Source: Sphingomonadaceae bacterium
Lineage (GTDB): Bacteria > Pseudomonadota > Alphaproteobacteria > Sphingomonadales > Sphingomonadaceae
Reading direction: 5' to 3'
DNA length: 38,918 nucleotides
Assembly (NCBI GenBank): GCA_021741065.1
Contig: JAIOYN010000008.1
Coordinates: forward strand, 1 to 38,918
Both the position numbers and the translations under genes were made by a program. The notes beneath the pieces were generated by a model that searched no databases, was not told where the DNA came from, and worked only from the letters and a program-made list of their open reading frames with translations. Shown here one piece after another: positions 5,415 to 20,573 of this stretch; the stretch's first letter is position 1, and each line of letters starts with the position of its first letter.

Positions 5415-7259
5415 TCAACGCGGACGGTTGCCCTTTGCCTTGTGCTTGACCCCATGCTTGGACGGGGGCGGGCCATCCTTACGGAAAGGACGTGCGCCGT
5501 CGCGGCTTGAACCACCGCCACGTGGTCCGTCTCCGCGGAAATTGCCGCCACGGGGTGGACCGTCACCACTTGGTGGGCCATCGCTCCGTGAATTAACACC
5601 AAGCTTCGCACGTTGCGGACGATCGCCATCGCGGCCCCTGCGCTTGTTTTCGCGTGCGGCTTCCCTTGGCGGACCATTAGCTTGGACAATTTCGACGTCA
5701 TTGTCCTCCTCATGTCCCGGTTGTGCAATCGACTTAGCGAACTTGGCGACCGCAGCTGCCGCAATTCCAACATGGGTTTCATTTGCGGCAATGCGTATGG
5801 CACCAATGTCGTTCTTCGTCACACCGCCACGGCGACACAATAATGGCAATATCCATTTAGGATCGGCATTGTTACGGCGACCCACGTTCAGTTTAAACCA
5901 CACGGAATCGTCAAACCCTGCGCGATGGTCGTCACGTTGACGTTCACGACTGCCGTCATCCAGCAAATCTTCAGCTTGCGGCATCTTGGCACGATGCACG
6001 CGCACCAAAGCGGCCGCTATGTCCTCGGCCGACATAGTTTCGAGCAAGCGGGCGCCCAGCGCGCGGTCTTCGTCCTCAACTTCTACAGGCGTGAGAAGCG
6101 TTTCAAGCAGGCGCTCATGGTCCTTGGCCCGAATATCCGCAGCGGTAGGAACCTTGATCCAGTCCGCCTCAATCTTTGCCCCGCGCAGCATGGATTCCAC
6201 GCGCTTGCGGCGCTGATAGGGCACGATCAATACGGCAGTACCCTTGCGGCCTGCACGACCCGTACGGCCCGATCTGTGCTGAAGCCCTTCTGCATCGCGC
6301 GGCAGTTCAACATGCACAACCAACGATAGGTTGGGCAAATCGATCCCGCGTGCGGCAACGTCGGTTGCTACGCAAACGCGCGCCCGCTGGTCACGCAAAG
6401 CCTGAAGCGCGTGGTTGCGTTCAGACTGCGAATGCTCACCCGACAAAGCCACGACGTTAAAGCCGCGCTCGGTCAGGCTGGCATGCAAGCGGCGAACATT
6501 TTCGCGCGTGGCGCAAAACAGAATAGCGGTTTCCGCCTCATGCAAACGCAGCAAGTTCACGACAGCGTTTTCGATATCCGGTGGAGCAACCGTGACTACT
6601 TGATAGCTGATGTCGCCATGGCCGCGGTCTTCGCCAATGGTTGAAATGCGCAAAGCGTCGCGCTGATATCGTTTTGCCAGCGAAACAATCGGCTTCGGCA
6701 TCGTAGCCGAGAACAGCAATGTCCGCCGGCCTTCAGGCGTAGCGTTCAATATCTCTTCAAGCTCTTCACGAAAGCCCATGTCGAGCATTTCGTCCGCTTC
6801 ATCCAAGATGGCGACTTTCAACGCCGACAGATCAAGCGCACCGCGCTCCAAATGGTCGCGAAGCCGTCCGGGGGTACCGACAACAATCTGCGCGCCTTGG
6901 TTCAATGTGCGGCGCTCTTTCGACGCATCCATTCCACCGACGCAGGTCGCAATACGTACGCCTGCTTTGCTATAGAGCCACATCAATTCGCGGCTCACTT
7001 GTAAGGCAAGCTCGCGGGTCGGCGCGATGATGAGCGCAGCAGGCTCTCGGGCGAGGCTAACAATTCCACCATCAAGGATTTGGGGTGCCATAGCGAGGCC
7101 AAAGGCCACGGTCTTGCCCGAGCCGGTTTGCGCTGACACGACGAGGTCGCGTCCGACGGCTTCCTCAGTAATTACAGCGTCTTGAACAGGGGTTAGCGTG
7201 GTATATCCACGCGCGGTGAGCGCTTCATCGAGAAGCGGGGGAATGTTTTCGAATGTCAT
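5415..7259 (-). CDS. DEAD-box ATP-dependent RNA helicase with DbpA-type RNA-binding domain and basic tail
   Basis: The 614-residue protein carries all helicase motifs: Q motif (TLTPVQDAVI), I (AQTGSGKT, 43-50), Ia (PTRELALQ), II (DEAD, 153-156), III (SAT), and VI (HRSGRTGRAGRKG). A DbpA-type RRM domain follows near 450-515 (VWFKLNVGRRNNADPKWILPLL, then GAIRIAANETHVGI). The last 60 or so residues are Gly/Arg/Pro-rich and unstructured, ending in a Lys/Arg cluster. This is the plan of DeaD/CsdA helicases, which unwind structured RNA in ribosome assembly and mRNA decay at low temperature. It is transcribed divergently from phaC. The exact paralogue (deaD or other) is not settled. Confidence 0.93.
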   Translation of the reverse strand: MTFENIPPLLDEALTARGYTTLTPVQDAVITEEAVGRDLVVSAQTGSGKTVAFGLAMAPQILDGGIVSLAREPAALIIAPTRELALQVSRELMWLYSKAGVRIATCVGGMDASKERRTLNQGAQIVVGTPGRLRDHLERGALDLSALKVAILDEADEMLDMGFREELEEILNATPEGRRTLLFSATMPKPIVSLAKRYQRDALRISTIGEDRGHGDISYQVVTVAPPDIENAVVNLLRLHEAETAILFCATRENVRRLHASLTERGFNVVALSGEHSQSERNHALQALRDQRARVCVATDVAARGIDLPNLSLVVHVELPRDAEGLQHRSGRTGRAGRKGTAVLIVPYQRRKRVESMLRGAKIEADWIKVPTAADIRAKDHERLLETLLTPVEVEDEDRALGARLLETMSAEDIAAALVRVHRAKMPQAEDLLDDGSRERQRDDHRAGFDDSVWFKLNVGRRNNADPKWILPLLCRRGGVTKNDIGAIRIAANETHVGIAAAAVAKFAKSIAQPGHEEDNDVEIVQANGPPREAARENKRRGRDGDRPQRAKLGVNSRSDGPPSGDGPPRGGNFRGDGPRGGGSSRDGARPFRKDGPPPSKHGVKHKAKGNRPR

Positions 7260-7358: not shown

Positions 7359-8999
7359 ATGGCCGACTCATCCGAAATCCCGCCTTTTATGGACCCCACT
7401 CAGTTCATAAAGTTGTTCGTGCCAACCGGTGCAACGACAACTGACCCCTTAAAGGCCTATCGCGCGGCGTTGGATGCCTGGGGAACCTTGTTGGAACCCC
7501 TAGCCAAAGCTGGCCGGGACAAGGTCGATACCACAGATCGCCGTTTTGCCGCGCCGCAATGGGAGCACCCCGTATTCGACTTGGTCCGTCAAAGCTATCA
7601 GGTCATGTCCGAACATATGTTGACCGCAGCTGACCAATTGGATGGCTTGTCCGAAAATGATAGAGCAAAAATGGGCTTTGCTCTGCGTAGCATCATTGAA
7701 GCGATGAGCCCTGCAAATTCGCCCTTTACTAATCCGGTTGCACTCGAACGCGCCCTAGAATCCAACGGCGCGAGCCTGATGTCCGGGTTGCAGCACCTGA
7801 TGCAGGACATGCAGCGCGGGCAGTTGACCCATACCGATTCAAGCGCATTTACCCTTGGTGAAAACATTGCGGCAACACCGGGCAAGGTTGTGCACCAAAC
7901 GCCTTTATATCAGCTCATTCAATATGACCCGACCACGGAAAATGTGCTGGAAACGCCGCTCATCATTTTCCCGCCATGGATCAACCGTTTTTATATTCTC
8001 GATCTGACGGCGGAAAAAAGCTTCATTAAATATTGCGTCGACCATGGCATCACGGTTTTTGTCGTGTCGTGGAAATCGGCAGACGCTTCGATGAAGGACA
8101 TTATTTGGGACGATTATGTCGCGGCGCAGATTGACGCAATTGATACAGTGCGCAGTGCCCTTGATGTGCTAGATGTCCATACGATTGGCTATTGTGTTGC
8201 GGGCACGACCTTGGCCGCAACGCTCGCGGTCCTCGCGGCAACGGACGCTGCTGACAAAGTGTGCAGCGCGACCTTTTTTACAGCACAGGTCGATTTTAGT
8301 TCCAGCGGCGAACTTTTGCATTTTATCGATGATCAGCAAATTGCAATGACGGAGGCGCTGAGTGCACCGCAAGGTTATTTGGATGGCCGTTTTCTTGCAC
8401 TGACCTTCAACATGTTGCGCGGTAAGGATTTGATATGGTCCACCGTCGTCAAAAATTATCTGCTAGGTGAAGACTATCCTGCGTTCGATTTGCTGCACTG
8501 GAATGGCGACGTCACCAACCTGCCCGCCAAATGGCACCGCAACTATCTCGTCGACCTTTATCGCGATAACCGGCTCGTGAAGCCAAATGATTTGTCGGTA
8601 CTCGGTACCCCAATTGACCTGCGCCGCGTAAAAACACCGACCTATATTCAGGCCGGCCGCGAGGATCATATTGCACCCGCCGAAAGCGTTTGGAAACTGC
8701 AGGAGAATTTCACTGGCCCGACCAAATTCTTATTGGCGGGCAGCGGCCATATTGCGGGTGTCGTTAACCCGCCTGCGCAGATGAAATATCAATACTGGAC
8801 CAATGACACATCGCCGCCCTCACTCGCGGCCTTCATTGCGGGCGCCACGGAGACGAAGGGTAGCTGGTGGCCCGATTGGCTCGCCTGGCTCACAGAGAAG
8901 AATGCCAAGCGAGTGCCAGCGACCGGGCCGCGACAACCAGGCCAAGGCACCCTGAAGGCGCTGGAATCGGCTCCAGGAAGCTATGTGAAGGCACGATGA
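7359..8999 (+). CDS. phaC: Class I poly(3-hydroxyalkanoate) synthase
   Basis: PhaC polymerises (R)-3-hydroxyacyl-CoA into PHA at the granule surface. The 546-residue protein has a PhaC N-terminal domain (MSGLQHLMQDMQRGQ) and the signature PPWINRFYILDLTAEKSFIKYCVD. The lipase-like box is GYCVAGT with catalytic Cys at 279; the usual form is GFCVGGT, so one Gly is Ala here. The general-base His is in AGSGHIAGVVNPP, and an Asp candidate is in GREDHIAPAESVW. Length fits class I. The start lacks a Shine-Dalgarno; TCGACA (7324-7329) and TATGCC (7346-7351) may be a weak promoter giving a leaderless message. phasin and phaB are elsewhere in the window. Confidence 0.93.
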   Translation: MADSSEIPPFMDPTQFIKLFVPTGATTTDPLKAYRAALDAWGTLLEPLAKAGRDKVDTTDRRFAAPQWEHPVFDLVRQSYQVMSEHMLTAADQLDGLSENDRAKMGFALRSIIEAMSPANSPFTNPVALERALESNGASLMSGLQHLMQDMQRGQLTHTDSSAFTLGENIAATPGKVVHQTPLYQLIQYDPTTENVLETPLIIFPPWINRFYILDLTAEKSFIKYCVDHGITVFVVSWKSADASMKDIIWDDYVAAQIDAIDTVRSALDVLDVHTIGYCVAGTTLAATLAVLAATDAADKVCSATFFTAQVDFSSSGELLHFIDDQQIAMTEALSAPQGYLDGRFLALTFNMLRGKDLIWSTVVKNYLLGEDYPAFDLLHWNGDVTNLPAKWHRNYLVDLYRDNRLVKPNDLSVLGTPIDLRRVKTPTYIQAGREDHIAPAESVWKLQENFTGPTKFLLAGSGHIAGVVNPPAQMKYQYWTNDTSPPSLAAFIAGATETKGSWWPDWLAWLTEKNAKRVPATGPRQPGQGTLKALESAPGSYVKAR

Positions 9000-9008
9000 G
9001 ATTCAATT

Positions 9009-9026
9009 GACGTTTACGTAAACGTC
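9009..9026. promoter_or_regulatory. Perfect 18-bp palindrome upstream of the acyl-CoA dehydrogenase pair
   Basis: GACGTTTACGTAAACGTC is a perfect inverted repeat, ten bases after the phaC stop and about 35 bases before the dehydrogenase start. Its ACGTTTACGTAAACG core resembles operators of MerR-family regulators of acyl-CoA and branched-chain catabolism (LiuR type). It is probably an operator; the regulator is not in the window. Confidence 0.6.
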
Positions 9027-9061
9027 GACTAGTCCAGTGTCAGCTTTTTAGGAGAATCGTG

Positions 9062-10255
9062 ATGCAACTCGAATTCAGCCCCGCAGAAATCGCCTTCCAG
9101 AAGGAAGTGCGGACATTCATCGCCGACAATTACCCCGAAAATCTCCGTTCTGTTCAAGACGAAGGGCATGATCTTTCGAAGGAAGATTTTCTGTCATGGC
9201 ATCGCATTCTCGCCCAAAAGGGCTGGATCGCACCTGCATGGCCCGTCGAATATGGCGGTACTGGTTGGACCGCGACGGAGCGTTTCATCTGGTCCGAAGA
9301 ACTGGCATCTGCCGACTGCGTAGGAACGATGCCATTTGGTCTGTCGATGGTTGGTCCGGTGATCTACACTTTCGGCACGCCTGAGCAGAAAGCCAAATTC
9401 CTCCCAGGTATCTTGTCGGGCGATGATTGGTGGTGTCAGGGATATTCCGAACCCGGCGCTGGTTCCGACCTTGCATCTTTGCGTACCAAGGCCGTTCGTG
9501 ACGGCGACCATTATGTGGTTAATGGTCAGAAAACTTGGACAACCATGGCGCAGCATGCCGACTGGGGCTTTTTCCTGGTGCGCACCGATACCGATGCCAA
9601 AGCGCAAGAGGGCATCAGCTTCCTATTGATTGACATGAAGTCGCCTGGCGTGACAGTCCGTCCGATCATCACCTTGGGCGGCGAGCATGAGGTCAACGAA
9701 GTTTGGCTAGAAGACGTTCGCGTACCTGTGGAAAATCGCGTTTACGAAGAAAACAAGGGTTGGACCTGCGCCAAGTTCTTGCTGGCGCACGAGCGCACCG
9801 GTATTGCCGCCGTTGCGCGTTCAAAGCGCGGCGTGGAAAAGATAAAGGCGATTGCCCGTACCGAACAGGATGGCGACCGCCCGTTAATTGCCAACCCGTT
9901 CTTCAAACGCAAGATTTCGGAACTTGAAATTGATCTCACGGCGCTTGAATTTACCGAATTGCGTAGCCTTGCCGGTGAAGCAGCAGGCAAGGGCCCTGGC
10001 CCTGAATCGAGCTTGCTGAAAATCAAAGGGTCCGAAATCCAGCAACGGATTACCGAACTCGCGCTGGAAGCGGTCGGCCATTATGGTGCGCCCTATTTCC
10101 GCGGCTTTGGCGAAGGCGACAATGAACACCCCATTGGTCCAGATTACGCACACCGCGCTGCACCGACCTATTTCAACACCCGCAAGACGACGATTTACGG
10201 CGGATCGAACGAGATCCAACGCAACATCATCGCCAAGATGGTATTGGGGATTTAA
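9062..10255 (+). CDS. Acyl-CoA dehydrogenase, PimC-like large subunit
   Basis: This FAD-dependent acyl-CoA dehydrogenase has 397 residues. It has the N-terminal helical domain (LEFSPAEIAFQKEVRTFI), APAWPVEYGGTGWT, the FAD/substrate loop YSEPGAGSDLASL, NGQKTWTT, and the C-terminal TTIYGGSNEIQRNIIAKMVLG. The start is the ATG at 9062, seven bases after AGGAG; the GTG one codon upstream is unlikely. Where medium-chain enzymes have YEG(T/S), this has YGGS, so the standard catalytic Glu is absent at that site. The sequence is like the large subunit of pimeloyl-CoA dehydrogenase (PimC), and the next gene is like PimD. A two-subunit enzyme oxidising a dicarboxylyl- or bulky acyl-CoA is inferred. The substrate is unknown. 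Confidence 0.85.
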   Translation: MQLEFSPAEIAFQKEVRTFIADNYPENLRSVQDEGHDLSKEDFLSWHRILAQKGWIAPAWPVEYGGTGWTATERFIWSEELASADCVGTMPFGLSMVGPVIYTFGTPEQKAKFLPGILSGDDWWCQGYSEPGAGSDLASLRTKAVRDGDHYVVNGQKTWTTMAQHADWGFFLVRTDTDAKAQEGISFLLIDMKSPGVTVRPIITLGGEHEVNEVWLEDVRVPVENRVYEENKGWTCAKFLLAHERTGIAAVARSKRGVEKIKAIARTEQDGDRPLIANPFFKRKISELEIDLTALEFTELRSLAGEAAGKGPGPESSLLKIKGSEIQQRITELALEAVGHYGAPYFRGFGEGDNEHPIGPDYAHRAAPTYFNTRKTTIYGGSNEIQRNIIAKMVLGI

Positions 10256-10267
10256 GCTAACATTGCA

Positions 10268-10345
10268 CCGTCACCCTGAACTTGTTTCAGGGTCTTAATT
10301 CGCAACGCCGAAAGTAAGATGCTGAAACAAGGTCAGCATGACGGG
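10268..10345. repeat. Interspersed palindromic repeat, copy 1 (two hairpins, inverted relative to each other)
   Basis: The first hairpin is ACCCTGAA (10273-10280), loop CTTGT, TTCAGGGT (10286-10293). The second is ATGCTGA (10319-10325), loop AACAAGG, TCAGCAT (10333-10339). The second unit read on the other strand (CGTCATGCTGACCTTGTTTC) is homologous to the first (CGTCACCCTGAACTTGTTTC), so the element is an inverted pair of REP-like units. It sits in the gap between the two dehydrogenase subunit genes. A related copy is at 32132-32220. Confidence 0.8.
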
Positions 10346-10366
10346 TTATTAGACGGGATAACTATA

Positions 10367-11506
10367 ATGGATTTCAGCTACACCGAAACGCAGGACATGA
10401 TCCGCGAAACCCTAAGCCGTTTTTTGGCGGACACCTATGACTTCGATAGCCGCAACAAGATGATCGCCAGCGGCACGGGACGTGACCCCGCTATTTGGAA
10501 GGCATTGGCCCAAGATTTGGGCATGTTGGGTGCGTCATTCAGCGAAGAGCATGGCGGGCTTGGCGGCGGACATCTCGAAAATGCGCTTATCATGGAAGAA
10601 TTGGGCAAAGTCATCGCGGTTGAGCCTTATCTCCAGACTGTGGTGCTCGGCGGCGGCGCGTTAAAGGCAGTGGGCGGTGCCGTTGCGAATGCTGTCATCC
10701 CTGAAATCATCAATGGCAACGTCATCATCGCTTTTGCCTATGCGGAGCCTCAGGGCCGCTATAACCTCGCCAATATCCGCACGACCGCGAAGAAGGACGG
10801 CGCGGGTTATGTCCTGAACGGCCATAAAGGGGTCGTGTACGCAGCGCCATGGGCCACGCATTTGCTCGTCACCGCACGGACAGGCGGCGCGGCCACCGAT
10901 GTAAACGGCGTGTCATTGTTCCTGATTGACGCCAATGCAAAGGGCATTGTTCGCCGCGATTACCCGACTGTGGATGGTTTTCAGGCGTCTGAAATCTATT
11001 TTGAAAACGCTGCAATCCCTGCGGATGCTTTATTGGGTAACGAAGGCGCGGGCCTGCCCCTTATTGAACGTATCGTTGATGAAGCAACAGTTGCCGTCTG
11101 CGCAGAATCGTGCGGCGTGACGGCCAAGCTGCATCAGGGTACGTTGGAATATGCGCGTCAGCGCAACCAATTTGGTCAGCCAATCTCGCGCTTCCAAGTG
11201 CTTCAGCATCGTATGGTCGACATGTTCATGGAGGTTGAGCAATCAAAGTCCATGACCACAATGGCGACGCTTAAACTCGATCTACCCGCGGCCGAACGTA
11301 TGGCGGCAGTATCGGCATGCAAGGCAAAGGTGTCGCGCTCGGCAAAGTTTGTTGGGCAAAGTGCCATTCAAACGCATGGCGGCATTGGGATCACGCAAGA
11401 GTTGGCCATTGGTCACTTCTTTAAGCGGGCAACGATGATCGAGAACCAGTTTGGCTCTGCGGATCACCATTATGAACGTTTTGAACGGCTGACTTTGGCG
11501 GATTAA
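10367..11506 (+). CDS. Acyl-CoA dehydrogenase, PimD-like small subunit
   Basis: The 379-residue protein is a second acyl-CoA dehydrogenase homologue, of the smaller-subunit type. It has MDFSYTETQDMIRETLSRFL, GASFSEEHGGLGGG, VEPYLQTVVLGGGALK, and the C-terminal IQTHGGIGITQELAIGHFFKRA in place of the YGGS/YEGT motif. Such partners pair with a large subunit to build one active site, as in PimCD and the mycobacterial FadE heterotetramers. The start at 10367 begins exactly where family similarity begins; an in-frame ATG at 10319 would translate the second hairpin of the repeat. Ribosome binding is modest (GGGATAA). A 110-base gap with the repeat separates it from the large subunit. Confidence 0.83.
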   Translation: MDFSYTETQDMIRETLSRFLADTYDFDSRNKMIASGTGRDPAIWKALAQDLGMLGASFSEEHGGLGGGHLENALIMEELGKVIAVEPYLQTVVLGGGALKAVGGAVANAVIPEIINGNVIIAFAYAEPQGRYNLANIRTTAKKDGAGYVLNGHKGVVYAAPWATHLLVTARTGGAATDVNGVSLFLIDANAKGIVRRDYPTVDGFQASEIYFENAAIPADALLGNEGAGLPLIERIVDEATVAVCAESCGVTAKLHQGTLEYARQRNQFGQPISRFQVLQHRMVDMFMEVEQSKSMTTMATLKLDLPAAERMAAVSACKAKVSRSAKFVGQSAIQTHGGIGITQELAIGHFFKRATMIENQFGSADHHYERFERLTLAD

Positions 11507-11523
11507 AGCGCCAGAAATCACTT

Positions 11524-11538
11524 TTGTGCACTGCACCA
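11524..11538. promoter_or_regulatory. Candidate PhaR-type site 1 at the phasin promoter
   Basis: TTGTGCACTGCACCA contains TGC-ACT-GCA, an inverted form of the TGC-AGT-GCA at site 2. It lies just upstream of the -35 box of the phasin promoter. PhaR is known in alphaproteobacteria to repress phasin genes through TGC-N3-GCA-type palindromes. Confidence 0.5.
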
Positions 11539-11545
11539 TTTTTTG

Positions 11546-11574
11546 TTGACATAGTTTGCATTTGCATTTATTGT
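11546..11574 (+). promoter_or_regulatory. Promoter of the phasin gene
   Basis: A consensus TTGACA (11546-11551) and TATTGT (11569-11574) are separated by exactly 17 bases. Predicted start of transcription is near 11581, about 26 bases before the first usable ATG. A palindromic site overlaps the -10 box. Confidence 0.75.
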
Positions 11575-11585
11575 GCAGTGCAACA
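11571..11585. promoter_or_regulatory. Candidate PhaR-type site 2 overlapping the phasin -10 box
   Basis: TTGTGCAGTGCAACA holds TGC-AGT-GCA and covers the end of the -10 box and the predicted transcription start. This is where a repressor would block transcription. PHA granule accumulation would relieve it if the regulator is PhaR (inference). Confidence 0.5.
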
Positions 11586-11606
11586 CAACAGAAATGGTGC
11601 GTACAC

Positions 11607-12227
11607 ATGGCTCGCAAAACACAGATCAATGCCCCGGCAAAAACTGCAAAAGTTGCAGCGCCAAAGGTCATCGCTGCGAAAAATGCTCCAAACACCACTG
11701 GGAAGACTAAGGTGGAAACATCTGCTGCTTCGTCGGATCCTCAATCCGTGTCTGTTGAAACAACATCGATTGCTCAAGGAGTATCAAACATGACTGACAC
11801 TGTTAAAACGACTGCAGAAAAGGCGACTGAGTTTTTCGCTGACGTCCGTGAAAAGGCAAACGAAGCTTCGGAAAAGGGCAAGAAGTTTGCTGCTGAAGCC
11901 GTTGAATTCAACAAGGCAAATGTTGAAGCCGTAGTTGAAGCTGGCAAGATTGTTGCTAAGGGCGCTCAGGAAATCGGCAAGACCAACATGGAATTCGCAA
12001 AGAAGAATTTCGAAGAAGTTCAGGTTGCCGTCAAGGAATTGACTTCGGTCAAGTCGCCAACGGATTTCGTTAAGCTTCAGGGCGAATTGGCCCGCAAGGG
12101 TTTCGACACCGCCGTTGCTCAGGGCTCGAAAAACACGGAAGCGATGGTCAAGTTGGTCAGCGAAATGTTCCAGCCAATCTCGAACCGCATCGCGGCGACG
12201 ACAGAACTTTTCAAGAAAGCTGCATAA
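11607..12227 (+). CDS. Phasin family protein (PHA granule-associated)
   Basis: Phasins coat PHA granules and control their size. The 206-residue protein has an Ala/Lys/Pro-rich flexible N-terminus (residues 1-55 or so), then an amphipathic helical phasin domain ([60 protein letters not shown]). The first ATG after the predicted transcription start is 11607, with no clear ribosome site. A second in-frame ATG at 11790 has AAGGAG eight bases upstream and would give a 145-residue protein that begins [11 protein letters not shown]. Both may be used. The gene has its own promoter with two operator-like palindromes and is followed by a structured 3' region. Confidence 0.88.
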
Positions 12228-14137: not shown

Positions 14138-15418
14138 ATGGATAAGATAATCGTACGTGGCGGTAACGCACTCAAGGGCAAAATTCCGATTTCAGGTGCG
14201 AAGAACAGTGCATTGACACTGATCCCCTGCGCGCTGCTGACGGATGAACCGCTGACTTTGCGTAATTTGCCGCGCTTGGCCGACATTGACGGCTTTCAGC
14301 ATCTGATGAACCAGTTCGGCATTTCAACGACGGTTGCTGGGTCACGCCCTGAAGATTTCGGCCGTGTGATGACGTTGGAAGCCACACGGATCACCAGCAA
14401 CATCGCGCCTTACGACCTTGTTCGCAAAATGCGTGCTTCTATCCTTGTTCTTGGCCCAATGCTGGCGCGCGCTGGTGAAGCGACTGTTTCGCTACCGGGC
14501 GGATGCGCGATCGGCAACCGGCCGATTGACCTTCATCTAAAGGCGTTAGAGGCCTTTGGCGTCGAGATTGAAGTAGCAGCCGGCTATGTCAAAGCCATTG
14601 CCAAAAAGGGCATTCCGGGTGGGACATACACATTTCCTGTCGTGTCCGTCGGCGCGACCGAAAACGCCTTGATGGCGGCCAGTCTCGCCAAGGGCACATG
14701 CGTGCTGCACAATGCGGCGCGCGAGCCGGAAATTGTAGACCTCTGCAACCTGCTTGTCGCCATGGGAGCGCAAATTGAAGGCATAGGCACATCCGATTTG
14801 ATCATTCAAGGTCGAGACCGCCTACATGGCGCAACCTACCGCGTGATGAGCGACCGTATCGAGGCCGGCAGCTACGCCTGTGCCGCTGCTATCACGGGCG
14901 GCGATGTCGAGCTCGTCGGTGCAAAAGCCAGTGAGATGGACGCGACGCTGGATGCCTTGCGTCAAGCCGGTGCTAAGGTCGAAGATACAGGAGCTGGCAT
15001 TCGCGTATCTTCAGATGGCAGATTAAAGCCGCTTACCATTTCCACGGCACCCTATCCCGGTTTTGCGACCGATATGCAGGCGCAGTTCATGGCCATGCTG
15101 TGCATGGCAGACGGCGCTAGCGTGCTTACCGAGACCATATTTGAAAACCGCTATATGCATGTACCCGAACTTAATCGGATGGGGGCGCATATCGAGACAA
15201 AGGGCCGCACGGCAATTGTCCATGGGGTCAAAAAGCTTACTGGCGCGCCCGTCATGGCAACTGACTTGCGGGCGTCGATGAGCCTAGTGATCGCTGGATT
15301 GGTAGCAGAGGGCGAAACGCATGTTAGCCGGCTCTATCATCTTGATCGCGGTTATGAACGGCTTGAGGAGAAGCTTCAGCTGGTCGGGGCGGACGTCGAA
15401 CGTGTCGGTGCGGAGTAA
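14138..15418 (+). CDS. murA: UDP-N-acetylglucosamine 1-carboxyvinyltransferase
   Basis: MurA makes the first committed step of peptidoglycan synthesis, transferring enolpyruvate from PEP to UDP-GlcNAc. The 426-residue protein has the N-terminal [20 protein letters not shown] with the catalytic Lys, and [18 protein letters not shown]. The active-site Cys is in [20 protein letters not shown] at residue 123, so fosfomycin sensitivity is expected. The C-terminal half has [13 protein letters not shown] and [19 protein letters not shown]. Length is normal. There is no Shine-Dalgarno; TTGCGC (14103-14108) and TAAATA (14125-14130) could place the transcript start at the ATG. Confidence 0.97.
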
Positions 15419-15458: not shown

Positions 15459-15487
15459 TTGCCAGTTTTGGATTTTTACAGTATTAA
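15459..15487 (+). promoter_or_regulatory. Promoter of the LOV-HTH gene (leaderless type)
   Basis: TTGCCA (15459-15464) and TATTAA (15482-15487) are separated by exactly 17 bases. The -10 ends seven bases before the GTG start codon, so transcription should begin at or next to the start codon, and no ribosome site precedes it. Confidence 0.6.
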
Positions 15488-15494
15488 TCCCTAA

Positions 15495-16127
15495 GTGACA
15501 GACGAACTTTTCTCAAAAAACAGCGTGTCCAGCAGCCATCCGGTTTTGGATTCGATTCTTTTTAGCCCGATTGCAACAGTCGTCAGCGACCCCACACAGC
15601 CTGACAATCCCCTGATTGCTGTGAATGCTGCCTTCTGCGCGCTGACCGGATATTCCGAAGCGGAATCGATTGGACGTAACTGCAGGTTCCTTCGTGGTCC
15701 CGACACCGAAAACGGTCAGACCGAAAAATTGCGCTCGGCGGTTTATGGACAACGCCCAGCCTTGGCTGAGCTTATCAACTACCGCAAAGACGGGTCCCCC
15801 TTTCGCAACGCGGTAATGATTGCGCCATTATTTGATGATGAAGGAAAGCTTGAGCTTTTCGTCGGATCTCAAATTGAGGTTCTGCCAGAAGAAGAGAGCA
15901 TTGGACTCGTTCGGCAACAAAAAGCGGCACAAATTGTTGACCGCCTATCGCCACGCCAACGCGAAATACTACAGCAAATGGCGCGCGGTTTCCGCACAAA
16001 GCAAATCGCCTACCGCCTGTCACTGAGTGAAAAAACGGTTCAAATGCACCGCATGTTAATGTTTAAAAAGCTTTCAACTTCAAACGCCGCAGATGCGGTG
16101 AGAATTGCCGTCGAAGCGGGTCTTTGA
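15495..16127 (+). CDS. Blue-light photoreceptor transcription factor, LOV domain plus LuxR-type HTH
   Basis: The 210-residue protein joins a LOV sensor (about 20-128) to a LuxR-type DNA-binding domain (150-210). The photoactive motif is GRNCRFLRG with Cys63. The flavin-contacting Asn residues are in NYRKDG (Asn95) and PFRN (Asn105), and the Gln that senses adduct formation is in VGSQIEV (Gln126). All are conserved, so light-driven Cys-FMN adduct chemistry is expected. The HTH is LSPRQREILQQMARGFRTKQIA and LSEKTVQMHRMLMFKKL. The plan and size match the one-component light-activated factor EL222 of Erythrobacter. The start is GTG with no ribosome site and a promoter ending seven bases before it. 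It lies between murA and the convergent ribbon-helix-helix/phaB genes. Its targets are unknown. Confidence 0.93.
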   Translation: MTDELFSKNSVSSSHPVLDSILFSPIATVVSDPTQPDNPLIAVNAAFCALTGYSEAESIGRNCRFLRGPDTENGQTEKLRSAVYGQRPALAELINYRKDGSPFRNAVMIAPLFDDEGKLELFVGSQIEVLPEEESIGLVRQQKAAQIVDRLSPRQREILQQMARGFRTKQIAYRLSLSEKTVQMHRMLMFKKLSTSNAADAVRIAVEAGL

Positions 16128-16160
16128 TCCGACCTTAGGGTTGCAAACTACCAGCCATAT

Positions 16161-16196
16161 CTGGGCCAGCAGCGGAGCCTTGAAGGCCCAGTGTTT
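16161..16196 (+). terminator. Possible terminator after the LOV-HTH gene
   Basis: CTGGGCC (16161-16167) and GGCCCAG (16185-16191) form a 7-bp stem with a 17-base loop, followed by TGTTTT. The loop is long and the T run short, so this is weak. Confidence 0.35.
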
Positions 16197-16228
16197 TCAA
16201 CCCGTGACATCACACATGTGGCGGTTCT

Positions 16229-16456
16229 TTATGCCCGCGCCATTAGCCAGAGCCGAATGGCGCTTGCAAGGCCACAGGGCGTTCGCGATTCAAGTCGCGC
16301 GACATCAATCTGCGCCACCAAAGCATTGACCGGCAGGCCATCTGCCTCCGCAATTGCCCGAAGCCGATCCCAAAATAACGGTTCAAGACTGATTGACGTC
16401 TGATGCCCGGCTACGGTCATGCTGCGTTTCACAGGCGGGTGATAGATGTCGCTCAA
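16229..16456 (-). CDS. Small ribbon-helix-helix domain protein
   Basis: The protein reads SDIYHPPVKRSMTVAGHQTSISLE, then PLFWDRLRAIAEADGLPVNALVAQID. This matches the RHH_4-type ribbon-helix-helix family found in many alphaproteobacteria, with the beta strand KRSMTVAGHQTSISL and two helices. I place the start at a TTG at 16456 (75 residues), where family similarity begins. A GTG at 16489 would overlap the phaB 3' end by 20 bases. It is downstream of phaB on the same strand and likely co-transcribed. DNA binding and a regulatory role are inferred from fold; its target is not known. Confidence 0.75.
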   Translation of the reverse strand: MSDIYHPPVKRSMTVAGHQTSISLEPLFWDRLRAIAEADGLPVNALVAQIDVARLESRTPCGLASAIRLWLMARA

Positions 16457-16469
16457 GATCGGATGCCCA

Positions 16470-17192
16470 TCAATACATGTGCTGGCCACCGTTGATCGAC
16501 AAAGTCGATCCGGTTATAAACCCTGCGTTATCGCTGGTGAGAAATTCGACGCCACGCGCAATTTCTTCAGGCTGCCCAAGGCGGCCGACAGGAATCTGGG
16601 CAACAATCTTCTCCATAACATTGTCAGGAATAGTCGACAGCATTTCTGTACCAATATATCCTGGCGCGATGGCATTGGCGGTCACGCCATGTCGTGCGCC
16701 CTCCGCCGCAAGGGATTTTGTAAAGCCATGAATGCCCGATTTGGCGGCGGCATAGTTCACCTGACCGATTTGTCCCCCTTGGCCGTTGACCGAGCCGATG
16801 TTGACAATTCGGCCCCATTTGCGCTCACGCATGCCCGCAAATACCGCCTTCGCCATGTTGAAGCAGCCCGTAAGGTCAACGCGGATTACCTCATCCCATT
16901 GTTCAAACGTCATTTTAATCATTGTGGCGTCCCGCGTTATGCCCGCATTGTTGACCATGATGTCGATCTGGCCATATTCGGCTTCAATGGCGGCGCAGGC
17001 ATCAATGCAACTTTTATGATCGCCTACGTCCCATTTCCGAACGGCGATGCCGGTACGCAGGGAGAAAGCCATTGCTGCAGCATCATTGCCGCCATAATTG
17101 GCGATTACCAGACGCCCCTTTTCTTGCAACTTTAGGCTAATCGCCTCCCCAATGCCTCTGGTACCGCCTGTAACCACTGCCACCTTTGTCAT
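16470..17192 (-). CDS. phaB: Acetoacetyl-CoA reductase
   Basis: PhaB reduces acetoacetyl-CoA to (R)-3-hydroxybutyryl-CoA with NADPH, feeding PhaC. This 240-residue SDR has VAVVTGGTRGIGEA (cofactor loop), NNAGITRDATM, the catalytic Ser in NIGSVNGQGGQIGQVNYAAAKSG and the Tyr-Lys pair in the same segment. It ends in STLSINGGQHMY, the characteristic PhaB C-terminus. I chose the ATG at 17192, preceded by AGGAGAG; an open frame continues upstream to 17249 without family similarity. phaA is not in the window. No TGC-N3-GCA site like those of phaC and the phasin gene is upstream. Confidence 0.9.
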   Translation of the reverse strand: MTKVAVVTGGTRGIGEAISLKLQEKGRLVIANYGGNDAAAMAFSLRTGIAVRKWDVGDHKSCIDACAAIEAEYGQIDIMVNNAGITRDATMIKMTFEQWDEVIRVDLTGCFNMAKAVFAGMRERKWGRIVNIGSVNGQGGQIGQVNYAAAKSGIHGFTKSLAAEGARHGVTANAIAPGYIGTEMLSTIPDNVMEKIVAQIPVGRLGQPEEIARGVEFLTSDNAGFITGSTLSINGGQHMY

Positions 17193-17298: not shown

Positions 17299-18300
17299 TT
17301 AAATCCAGCCAGCGAGTTCACGACGGATTATGCCTTCTACCATGTCCATGCCGACATCGCTGTCGTTCAGGCATGGCATATATGCGTAATGCGTGCCGCC
17401 TGCTTCTTCGAACTGCTCATGGCCCTGCATAGCCAATTCTTCGAGCGTTTCGAGGCAATCAACGGAAAAACCGGGCGCAAAAATTGCGACTTTTTTGGTG
17501 CCTTCGCGCGCCAACCGCATCAGCGTATCGTCCGTTGCGGGTTCAAGCCATTTGGCACGACCGAAACGTGACTGGAAACTGACAACCAATGCGCGCCCCA
17601 TTGCCTCAGACAGCAAACGCGCCGTTTTCTGGCAATGGCAATGATAAGGATCCCCCAATTGCAATGTGCGTTCGGGCATGCCGTGGAAGCTGATGACGAT
17701 AGCTTCGGGTTCGAAATCAAGTCCGGCAAGCGAAGCTTCAATCGACGTTTTCAGTGCGATAACATAGGCCGCGTCATCATGATAGGCAGGCAGCGTTCGT
17801 ATCGCGGGATGCCAGCGCATAGCGGTCAATGCGGCATAGGCCTCATCCAAAACAGTTCCCGTCGTTGCGCCAGAATATTGCGGATACATTGGCGCGATCA
17901 AAATACGGTTACAACCGGCGGTCTTCATGGCGGCGAGTTGATCAGCGACCGACGGGTTGCCATAGCGCATGGCGTAACGGACATCGGCGCTATCGCCCAT
18001 ACGCGCTTGCAGTGCGTCCGCCTGCCCAGCAGTGAAAAACGCGAGAGGCGAACCTTTGTCAGTCCACACTTTTTCATAAGCTTTCGCAGATTTCTGGGGA
18101 CGCGTATTCAAAATGATGCCACGCAAAATCGGTTGCCAGATGATCGGCGGAATTTCGACCACACGGCGGTCGGATAGAAACTGCTTGAGGTAGCGTTTCA
18201 CAGCAGACCTCGTCGGCGCATCCGGCGTCCCCAAATTTACTAATAGCACGCCAATCTTTGGTGTTGCTACGGGCGGGTGATCAATCGGTAATGTCATCAT
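17299..18300 (-). CDS. hemH: Ferrochelatase
   Basis: HemH inserts Fe2+ into protoporphyrin IX, the last step of haem synthesis. The 333-residue protein has KIGVLLVNLGTPDAPTRSAVKRYLKQFL, the catalytic His in ISFHGMPERTLQLGDPYHCHC, and FAPGFSVDCLETLEELA with the conserved Glu. Starts at 18300 or 18297; the latter has better spacing from AGAGGA. It overlaps the molybdopterin hydroxylase stop as ATGA, so it is the last gene of an operon with that gene and mrp. Confidence 0.95.
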   Translation of the reverse strand: MMTLPIDHPPVATPKIGVLLVNLGTPDAPTRSAVKRYLKQFLSDRRVVEIPPIIWQPILRGIILNTRPQKSAKAYEKVWTDKGSPLAFFTAGQADALQARMGDSADVRYAMRYGNPSVADQLAAMKTAGCNRILIAPMYPQYSGATTGTVLDEAYAALTAMRWHPAIRTLPAYHDDAAYVIALKTSIEASLAGLDFEPEAIVISFHGMPERTLQLGDPYHCHCQKTARLLSEAMGRALVVSFQSRFGRAKWLEPATDDTLMRLAREGTKKVAIFAPGFSVDCLETLEELAMQGHEQFEEAGGTHYAYMPCLNDSDVGMDMVEGIIRRELAGWI

Positions 18301-20573
18301 AGTCCTCTAGACAATAAAGGTAATTCGCGCAGCCTGATACCGGTTGCGGAGAAAATGGCATTAGCAATCGCAGGGGCGACAGCGGGAACACCCAATTCGG
18401 ACACGCCGCCAGGTGATTCATCATTACGAGCAAGTTCAACTGTAATTTCAGGTACATCAACCAATTTGGGTAAATCGATGTCGCGCAACCGCCGTGCAGT
18501 GGGAAGCCCGCTTTCAAAATCCGTAGCGGATCCCAATGCTTGCGCCAATCCAAACACGATGCCGCCTTCAATTTGCTGGCGCGCAAGGTCTGGGTTAATC
18601 AAACGACCACAATCAGCCATGGCATGAATGCGGTCCACGCGCACGCCGGTGTCGTTTTTGCGGGCGGTCACCATGACGGCAATATGGCTGCCGCGCATGC
18701 TGTGGCACGCAATGCCACGTCCGCTATCCGAAGCACCGCTATCCGAGCCAGCCATGATCGCTACCTCTGTCAGGCATCGCGCCAAACGTGACTGGCCAGC
18801 CAGCATTTGCATACGGAACGTCAAGGGTTCAACCCCTGCCTTATGCGCCAGTTCATCGATAAATCCTTCAACGAAGAAGCAATTATAGCTGTTGGCAAGG
18901 CCGCGCCATGGCCCCGTTGGCATGGGCATCGACACAGGGAAATGGTCAATGGTGATATTTGGTATGGCGTAAGGAATTTGCGCACCTTCCAGCGCAAGCA
19001 CATCATATTGGCCGGATGCCGATTTACGCGCCTTGTCGGGCTGCTGTCCTTCGATCCGGTGGGCCAACTCACGCATCGTGGAAGCTGCGGCGACACGAAC
19101 TGTTAAGCCCGTCACCGCGCCATCCGCATTCATGGCCGCAGAAAGCCTGCACAAAGCGGGACTACGGACGTGATCACGGACGAAATCTTCTGACCGGGAC
19201 CATGTTAATTGGACGGGCCTGCCCACTGCCTTGGCAATGACCGCCACTTGCGCGGCTATGCCATTGTCGAAATTGCGGTCAAAGCTGCCACCGGCTATCA
19301 CGGGGTGGTGCACAACATCATCCACGTTAATCCCAATGGCTTTCGCCACCGCCAGACGCGCGGCGTGCGGCGCTTGGGTCGCGAGCCACAATTGTAAGCG
19401 CCCATCCTTAAAGTTTGCAGTTGCGGAGCGTGTCTCAATCGGTGCGTGTACGGCCGCGCCGACGGTATAATCCGCCTTGAATATCCGTGCGCCTGCTTCC
19501 CGTGCCATGGCTGCATCAATATCGCCAACATTGGTGGCGCGAAAGCCGGGACCTTTGGCAATGGCATTGGACAAAGACTGCGCGATTGCGGTGCTGTCTG
19601 CCATCCGGCCCTTGGTGCGGAACACGGGTGCCATGGCATCAAGGGCATTGTTTGCCGCCCACCAGTTGCTTGCAACCGCCGCGACCCAGTTATCAGTCTT
19701 CACCACCTGCAGGACGCCAGGCATTTTCAGCGCAGCCTTCTCATCAGCCGACAACAGGCGGGTGTCACCCGCTGGCCCAGCGCGAACCGACGCAAACAAC
19801 ATGTCGGGCAAACGGACATCGCCGGCAAAACTTACGCTACCGTCAACCTTGGCTGACAGGTCAAGGCGCGGTGCATCGCGTCCGGACAGCCGGTTGCGTG
19901 CCGACGGGTTGAGCGGAATGGGCGACGGTACATCAAGCGCCGATGCCTCAACCACCAATTCTGCAAAGGACAAGCGCCGTTGGCCAGCAATGACAAAGCC
20001 ACGATCGGTCCGGCATTGCTCCCACGCGATGCCCCAACGCGCTGCTGCTGCCTGACATAACAAAGTCCGCGCCGCAGCGCCAGCTTCACGGCACGGTCTT
20101 TCAAATTGCCGGATCGAGGACGACCCGCCGGTCACGACGAACATGTCGCGGCGAGCGATTTCGTTGATGCTACTGGCAACGGGACCAACATGCACATTGA
20201 GCGCGATATTTTCTGGTAAGAACGCCGTCGCCCAATCGCGCGCCAACAGTGTGTTGGCAAAGATCGGACTAGCGGGAACCGGCTGCACCGCGACCGAGCG
20301 CCAGTCCGCCCCCAATTCACCGGCCACGATCTGCGCCAGCGCCGAATAAACACCTTGGCCAGAATCGCTCTGTGGGATGGCGACGATGACTTTGCCGTCC
20401 TCCGCAATTTTCAGCCATGGACCAAAAAGATGCTCCCCATCCGCCGCACGCATGTTTGGCGCATAGCGACGCGGCCATAGGCCCCATGCCACCAAAAGTC
20501 CGACGCCTACGCCGCCGCCAACCAGCAGTTTCCGGCGGCTTATGCCGTCCTTTGCTGCTGGCGCTTCATTCAT
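18297..20573 (-). CDS. Tat-exported molybdopterin-binding hydroxylase subunit (isoquinoline 1-oxidoreductase beta / xanthine dehydrogenase family)
   Basis: The 758-residue protein starts with a twin-arginine signal (SRRKLLVGGGVGVGLLVAWG, 12-31), so it should be folded with its cofactor and exported. The molybdenum-binding family segments are seen: SFAGDVRLPDMLFASV, GGSFDRNFDNGIAAQVAVIAK and PTGPWRGLANSYNCFFVEGFIDELAHKAG, with a C-terminal catalytic-Glu type motif GGVSELGVPAVAPAIANAIF. Family members hydroxylate N-heterocycles or oxidise aldehydes. The usual [2Fe-2S] small subunit is not adjacent. Genes overlap by 4 bp on both sides (mrp upstream, hemH downstream). Substrate unknown. Confidence 0.85.
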   Translation of the reverse strand: MNEAPAAKDGISRRKLLVGGGVGVGLLVAWGLWPRRYAPNMRAADGEHLFGPWLKIAEDGKVIVAIPQSDSGQGVYSALAQIVAGELGADWRSVAVQPVPASPIFANTLLARDWATAFLPENIALNVHVGPVASSINEIARRDMFVVTGGSSSIRQFERPCREAGAAARTLLCQAAAARWGIAWEQCRTDRGFVIAGQRRLSFAELVVEASALDVPSPIPLNPSARNRLSGRDAPRLDLSAKVDGSVSFAGDVRLPDMLFASVRAGPAGDTRLLSADEKAALKMPGVLQVVKTDNWVAAVASNWWAANNALDAMAPVFRTKGRMADSTAIAQSLSNAIAKGPGFRATNVGDIDAAMAREAGARIFKADYTVGAAVHAPIETRSATANFKDGRLQLWLATQAPHAARLAVAKAIGINVDDVVHHPVIAGGSFDRNFDNGIAAQVAVIAKAVGRPVQLTWSRSEDFVRDHVRSPALCRLSAAMNADGAVTGLTVRVAAASTMRELAHRIEGQQPDKARKSASGQYDVLALEGAQIPYAIPNITIDHFPVSMPMPTGPWRGLANSYNCFFVEGFIDELAHKAGVEPLTFRMQMLAGQSRLARCLTEVAIMAGSDSGASDSGRGIACHSMRGSHIAVMVTARKNDTGVRVDRIHAMADCGRLINPDLARQQIEGGIVFGLAQALGSATDFESGLPTARRLRDIDLPKLVDVPEITVELARNDESPGGVSELGVPAVAPAIANAIFSATGIRLRELPLLSRGL

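Follow-up and report, generated by a model that had tools for sequence, protein, structure and literature searches.

An EL222-type LOV-HTH protein of a freshwater Sphingorhabdus, and the predicted operators, hairpin RNAs and rhodopsin genes beside its relatives

EL222 of Erythrobacter litoralis HTCC2594 (structures 3p7n and 8a5r), in which a LOV domain is joined through a linker to a LuxR-type helix-turn-helix (HTH), is a workhorse of optogenetics. Homologous LOV domains with other outputs are found in LovK-type LOV histidine kinases and in YtvA. Among the small RNAs of Alphaproteobacteria, those with CCUCC loops, such as ar14/NfeR1, carry exposed anti-Shine-Dalgarno-like loops. The consensus for DNA binding by EL222 is given as RGNCYWWRGNCY (PMC10521638), and a passage of a 2014 review gives its role as binding DNA consensus sequences only (PMC4844311).

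We analyzed a 38,918-nucleotide stretch of DNA, here called the window, from a Sphingorhabdus-like genome (G000; 1.9 Mb, 84% complete) whose nearest named matches are Sphingorhabdus sp. EL138 (98%) and S. wooponensis (91%); the host is a freshwater Sphingorhabdus. We confirmed that the forward-strand frame at 15495..16127 is a real, intact EL222-type LOV-HTH gene. It encodes 210 residues from a GTG start, and its protein is named LOV-A in this work. Because orthologues with 71-98% identity are present in 34 of the 44 other genomes of the genus, the open reading frame is not a chance one. EL222 was the best PDB match (8a5r and 3p7n; E of about 1e-66 over residues 16-210), with the same plan over the full length and 55% identity over 194 residues. 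Pfam placed a PAS_9 match at residues 34-126 (5e-14), within a LOV domain of approximate limits 15576..15881, and a LuxR-type HTH (GerE, PF00196; 5e-18) at residues 150-205 (15942..16109), both on the forward strand. An earlier note on this DNA had described a complete LOV photochemistry set fused to a LuxR HTH as in EL222, and this description held: Cys63, which we take to be the adduct cysteine, and Asn95, Asn105 and Gln126, which we take to be the flavin-contacting polar residues, are shared with EL222 and kept in all 31 aligned sequences of the clade. The LovK-type kinases and YtvA share only the homologous LOV domain, and LOV-A missed their NCBIfam cut-offs (121 of 450 and 117 of 250 bits, respectively). 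The AlphaFold model of LOV-A was poor (pLDDT of 48.6).

Upstream of the gene, a -35-like TTGCCA (15459..15464, forward strand) and a -10-like TATTAA (15482..15487, forward strand; 17 bp past the -35 and 7 bp ahead of the GTG) form a putative promoter of its own. TTGC is present in 27 of 27 aligned upstream regions and TTGCCA in 24, and the GTG start occupies the same place in 21 of the 27 orthologous loci. Since TTGCCA-N17-TATTAA ends 7 nt before the GTG, the arrangement suggests a leaderless LOV-A mRNA transcribed from the gene's own promoter.

To compare residues, we aligned 87 sequences, with identical stretches entered once: 31 of the LOV-A clade (clade A), 11 of a paralogue termed LOV-B, 4 of group C, 12 rhodopsin-linked and 29 others. 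In an unrooted tree of these 87 rows, built with no outgroup, clade A forms one side of a branch with support of 91/93, and its neighbors are weakly supported (37/9). The LOV signature GRNCRFLRG begins at residue 60. It includes Arg67 (codon 15693..15695, forward strand), equivalent to Ala79 of EL222. The earlier note was right about this Arg, which is found in 31 of 31 clade A rows, but not about Gln being usual there: EL222 has Ala, the 56 rows outside the clade have Ala or Ser, and Gln was seen in a phototropin match. Residue 183 in the recognition helix (codon 16041..16043, forward strand) is Gln in all 31 clade A rows and Lys in EL222 and in 54 of the 56 others, the exceptions being L066 (Gln) and L144 (Glu). 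Residue 109 is Ile in LOV-A and in 27 of the 31 clade A rows (Leu in three, Val in one), where EL222 has Val121, a residue that we take to have a role in the AQTrip mutant. Ala79Gln is one of the changes of that mutant (PMC10300134). Judged from these positions, Arg67 probably alters the photocycle of LOV-A, and Gln183 probably alters its DNA preference.

LOV-A lies between murA (14138..15418, forward strand; assigned by TIGR01072 and synteny) and three genes on the opposite strand. These are a convergent gene for an RHH_4 ribbon-helix-helix protein (16229..16489; PF13467, 1.8e-25), a phaB-like acetoacetyl-CoA reductase gene (16470..17192; TIGR01829, 328.7 bits, above cut-off) and the ferrochelatase gene hemH (17299..18300; TIGR00109, 281.6 bits). 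The neighbors that had been named are all present, with phaB identified as phaB-like by TIGR01829; the stricter PhaB equivalog NF042966 was not reached (207 of 436 bits). It had also been proposed that LOV-A might regulate murA, phaB or hemH and so link light to carbon storage, heme or wall synthesis. This proposal gains from the conserved gene order, in which LOV-A lies between murA and RHH-phaB-hemH in 27 of 27 named loci, and from a related group of four loci (L064-L067) that also adjoins cell-wall genes, for an amidase and PBP1A. However, the order survives without the gene. We examined 13 genomes picked for having no LOV-A at the murA site; murA was found in 11, and 8 of these 11 loci kept the murA-RHH order (L159, L160, L163-L166, L168 and L169), with phaB also inside the 1.5-kb flank in four (L160 and L163-L165). 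RHH was not seen after murA in L161, L162 and L167. The gene order is therefore backbone. Moreover, no 10/10 EL222 site was present within 200 bp upstream of murA, LOV-A, RHH, phaB or hemH (26-27 loci scored), and sites of 9/10 were found upstream of these genes in 1, 1, 1, 1 and 0 loci, respectively, less often than in shuffles (22%). The promoter-like sequence of LOV-A and its strand, opposite to RHH-phaB-hemH, also speak against the proposed link. Because operators are absent and the murA-RHH synteny persists without LOV-A, we rejected regulation of the neighbors, which we consider very improbable; murA counts as a backbone neighbor. Since the recognition helix of clade A has Gln183 for Lys, its operator may differ from that of EL222.

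Further upstream of LOV-A, the window carries acyl-CoA dehydrogenase-like genes and a phasin gene (TIGR01841) at 7359-12227, and their order is mostly conserved throughout the genus. Upstream of two acyl-CoA dehydrogenase genes, 10/10 EL222 sites were found in 4 of 25 loci for each gene, compared with 2.4% of shuffles, and upstream of hflK and of dsbA-like genes in one locus each; some of these positions are misplaced owing to poor start mapping. The only exact EL222 sites of the window, at 6119 and 7096, are not at acyl-CoA dehydrogenase, hflK or dsbA-like genes, and by our estimate about two are expected in the window.

The relatives of LOV-A present a different picture 3' of the gene. We scored the EL222 consensus within 70 nt after the stop codon in the 30 loci with the best EL222 matches, in a family with 117 EL222-type genomes. 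A 10/10 site was present in 12 of the 30 loci (shuffles, 0.5%) and a site of at least 9/10 in 23 (shuffles, 7.8%). Coding sequence gave 0/30, and the region further 3' gave 0/30 for 10/10 sites and 1/30 for at least 9/10. At G288, which encodes a protein 100% identical to EL222 and is for this reason presumably E. litoralis HTCC2594, GGGCCAAGGTCC lies at +47 after the gene. An EL222-type operator directly 3' of the gene is thus common in the family examined here, and it is not a published defining feature; its function as an operator is predicted. Among 11 rhodopsin-linked loci, four have a 10/10 3' site, two loci being in both sets (L145 and L150 correspond to the genes listed as L111 and L126 among the 30); four of the 11 were no better than shuffles just 3' of the LOV gene (p of 0.38-0.45), with a combined p of 2e-6. 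No 10/10 3' operator was found in the 7 LOV-B loci, the 4 group C loci or the 21 loci of the window's subclade, and one was found among 10 basal clade A loci. The window itself has a short 3' gap of 101 bp after LOV-A (16128..16228, forward strand), the place taken by the operator and structured RNA in relatives. Neither was seen there, and the best operator score was 8/10. L041 (genome G025), which belongs to the window's subclade, retains a site resembling the one in basal clade A; therefore, loss of the 3' operator is not subclade-wide.

Beginning about 50 nt past the start of the operator, we found a long hairpin 3' of EL222-type genes. Of the 13 loci aligned, 11 have an operator-to-hairpin spacing of 49-52 nt. 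In L112, the automated choice fell on another site, and the operator scores and hairpin positions give a 9/10 site at 50 nt; in L125, it fell on a site at 25 nt. Five loci outside the alignment gave 50 (EL222), 57, 45, 46 and 51 nt. The outer stem has 14 pairs, which form in 92.3% of alignment cells, and 6 pairs are changed on both sides compared with 3.0 in shuffles (5 of 500 shuffles as high). Stem covariation was 0.289 against 0.207 in shuffles (0 of 500 as high) and fell to 0.091 or less when the stem was slid, while further pair types in the stem were not above shuffles (128 of 500). Four basal clade A loci share a fold of 25 pairs, 8 of them with compensatory changes. Folding z scores were -4.2 to -7.0 in 9 of the 10 elements folded, the EL222 stretch giving -2.7.

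We searched for the element with two RNA models. R1 matched 13 of 394 family genomes in 3 genera; 11 of the matches are training loci, and the new ones, G234 and G430, belong to a genus of the training set, of whose 13 genomes G467 and G469 were not among the matches. R2 matched 5 of 45 genus genomes, namely the four training loci and G032. By their coordinates, all R1 and R2 matches are located 3' of LOV-HTH genes. Few loci inform the ancestral state of clade A, because a 10/10 site occurs in only 1 of 10 basal loci and the RNA model matches 5 genomes. The window's 3' gap gave no RNA-model match, and neither model matched G000 in a genome search with strict filters. An RNA-model match at 20285-20334 of the window was taken as chance (E of 0.53). 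The hairpins of other genera may belong to the same RNA family.

The element is a predicted small RNA. That it is instead a terminator or a 3' untranslated structure of the LOV mRNA, and not separately transcribed, agrees with its position close behind the LOV gene. Against this, the loops are wide and C/U rich with CCUCC-like stretches in many loci (L099-L128 set), the U tract is weak or missing in most, and the hairpin is preceded by a -10-like sequence and by an operator at near-constant spacing. We regard the terminator as unlikely, though not strikingly so, and prefer the small RNA. Exposed anti-Shine-Dalgarno-like loops are a feature that the hairpin has in common with ar14/NfeR1-type RNAs. 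It differs from them in lacking any Rfam match across the 12 scanned sources (the sole match was a tRNA in the window), in being tied to LOV-HTH genes and in being absent from the window. Our literature search, largely without subscription papers, found no report of this RNA element with EL222 or Erythrobacter.

Since the window and most of its subclade show neither the adjacent operator nor the RNA, LOV-A could be a decaying or light-insensitive leftover. Its conservation argues against this. Median dN/dS in the window's subclade was 0.028 for LOV-A (172 pairs), 0.039 for the LOV part and 0.007 for the HTH, compared with 0.018 for murA and 0.061 for the RHH gene; these are rough values from a simple Nei-Gojobori calculation with high dS, from which saturated pairs and those whose dS was 0.1 or less had been removed. 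Purifying selection on the HTH is strong, and all photochemical residues are kept, so that a leftover is extremely unlikely. Because the 3' operator and RNA are absent, yet the HTH has a dN/dS of 0.007, the targets of LOV-A are probably elsewhere.

Twelve genomes of the genus encode a second LOV-HTH protein, LOV-B, with the same domain plan and 52-56% identity to LOV-A. It differs from LOV-A in having Ala in place of Arg67 and Lys in place of Gln183, the two residues diagnostic of clade A (11 of 11 rows), and by coordinates its gene is divergent to a rhodopsin gene (PF01036) in 12 of 12 genomes. One gene family comes next after rhodopsin in the seven loci read further; in L074 it is a beta-carotene dioxygenase (Pfam). 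A passage on a freshwater bacterium describes xanthorhodopsin and blh in one operon (PMC7762795), and the words LuxR, helix-turn-helix and transcriptional regulator are absent from the text of that paper. Titles and the starts of abstracts held nothing linking xanthorhodopsin, LOV and Sphingomonas, and our literature search found no work joining rhodopsin, LOV, LuxR and Sphingomonadales. In four Sphingorhabdus genomes, a third LOV-HTH group (L064-L067) adjoins genes for N-acetylmuramoyl-L-alanine amidase and PBP1A-like proteins.

In G000, LOV-B is truncated. Beside the rhodopsin gene (L094 on contig C20, about 2390-2789), the LOV core is gone, and what is left of LOV-B matches residues 6-58 and 146-213 alone. 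Because a frame of 93 codons that includes the HTH part is still open, an HTH-only product of this remnant is possible. Pieces of LOV-B also occur in L079, L083, L087 and L093. A further reading is that control of the rhodopsin-blh operon passed in trans to LOV-A once the G000 copy of LOV-B had lost its LOV core. The G000 rhodopsin gene is indeed adjoined by LOV-B pieces alone, and clade A was found in 26 of the 27 genomes with rhodopsin, compared with 9 of the 18 that lack it (raw counts, not corrected for kinship). We aligned 21 rhodopsin loci and set aside L084, whose upstream region is cut off, and L095 and L097, whose upstream regions are different. A TTGACA -35 was present at rhodopsin in all 7 loci without intact LOV-B (L079, L080, L083, L087, L091, L093 and L094) versus 3 of 11 with intact LOV-B (L081, L082 and L088), as if the promoter could now do without an activator. 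An 8/10 operator-like box upstream of rhodopsin is altered in 4 of the 7 loci without intact LOV-B, G000 included, although it also varies in distant loci with intact LOV-B (L090, L096 and L098). Both observations argue against a takeover, as do the persistence of LOV-A in genomes without rhodopsin and its different recognition helix, and we consider a takeover distinctly unlikely. In several Sphingorhabdus genomes, the last 50 bp before the rhodopsin start (L085, L094 and others) hold an inverted repeat of the GACATCC...GATGTC kind, varying on both sides, directly ahead of the Shine-Dalgarno sequence.

The rhodopsin linkage extends beyond the genus. Among 397 family genomes, an EL222-type protein was found in 117 (E up to 1e-45) and rhodopsin in 56, and in 16 of the 397, from ten genera, the coordinates place an EL222-type gene within 3 kb of rhodopsin. 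The rhodopsin-linked LOV-HTH proteins are spread over several branches of the unrooted 87-row tree. A scan of whole rhodopsin upstream regions with the EL222 operator gave best scores mostly at shuffle level; it was the stretch immediately behind the LOV gene that gave the signal. In L142, L147 and L150, long G+C-rich hairpins lie between co-directional LOV-HTH and rhodopsin genes; they are possibly related leaders or RNAs.

We looked for targets of LOV-A with an operator pattern of clade A. In 12 genomes it gave 14 matches, versus 56 for the reversed control. Only two kinds of match recurred: the LOV-A 3' sites of G022 and G025, and a match common to the close relatives G000 and G003, which falls inside an open reading frame in G000. 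Upstream regions of photolyase genes contained no usable LOV-A site, and an alignment upstream of crtB, in which two strands were mixed, gave nothing usable. Thus, no LOV-A target was found with the clade A pattern in 12 genomes, at the neighbor promoters or upstream of photolyase.

We consider it reasonably likely that LOV-A is an EL222-type, one-component blue-light transcription factor that has lost its adjacent target and acts on distant ones. By analogy with EL222, blue light would produce a flavin-Cys63 adduct and free the LuxR HTH to dimerize, and the dimer would bind a two-half-site operator as an activator. In the wider family, the predicted operator often lies immediately behind the LOV-HTH gene, with the structured, C/U-loop RNA (a predicted small RNA) some 50 nt further on, or alternatively ahead of a xanthorhodopsin-like gene. 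In the window, the adjacent target appears to have been lost, while LOV-A was kept under strong constraint; it would most likely act on distant genes, probably with the altered DNA preference and photocycle ascribed above to Gln183 and Arg67.

The relatives suggest that EL222-type switches normally drive a neighbor, either a structured small RNA or a proton pump powered by light. More broadly, and with slightly less than even confidence, we propose that EL222-type photoreceptors naturally serve to turn on a neighboring gene under blue light. In the ancestral state, this neighbor would have been a structured small RNA whose loops are anti-Shine-Dalgarno, and the xanthorhodopsin operon would have come in through redeployment; the LOV-A clade of Sphingorhabdus would have largely lost its local target, changed its recognition helix and a photocycle-tuning residue, and would now run a distant regulon. 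LOV-A is also a naturally occurring variant: it carries Arg at the position altered by engineering in slow EL222 mutants, in addition to its altered recognition helix. For the family as a whole, the conserved operator spacing, the covarying RNA and the repeated rhodopsin linkage make the natural targets directly testable.
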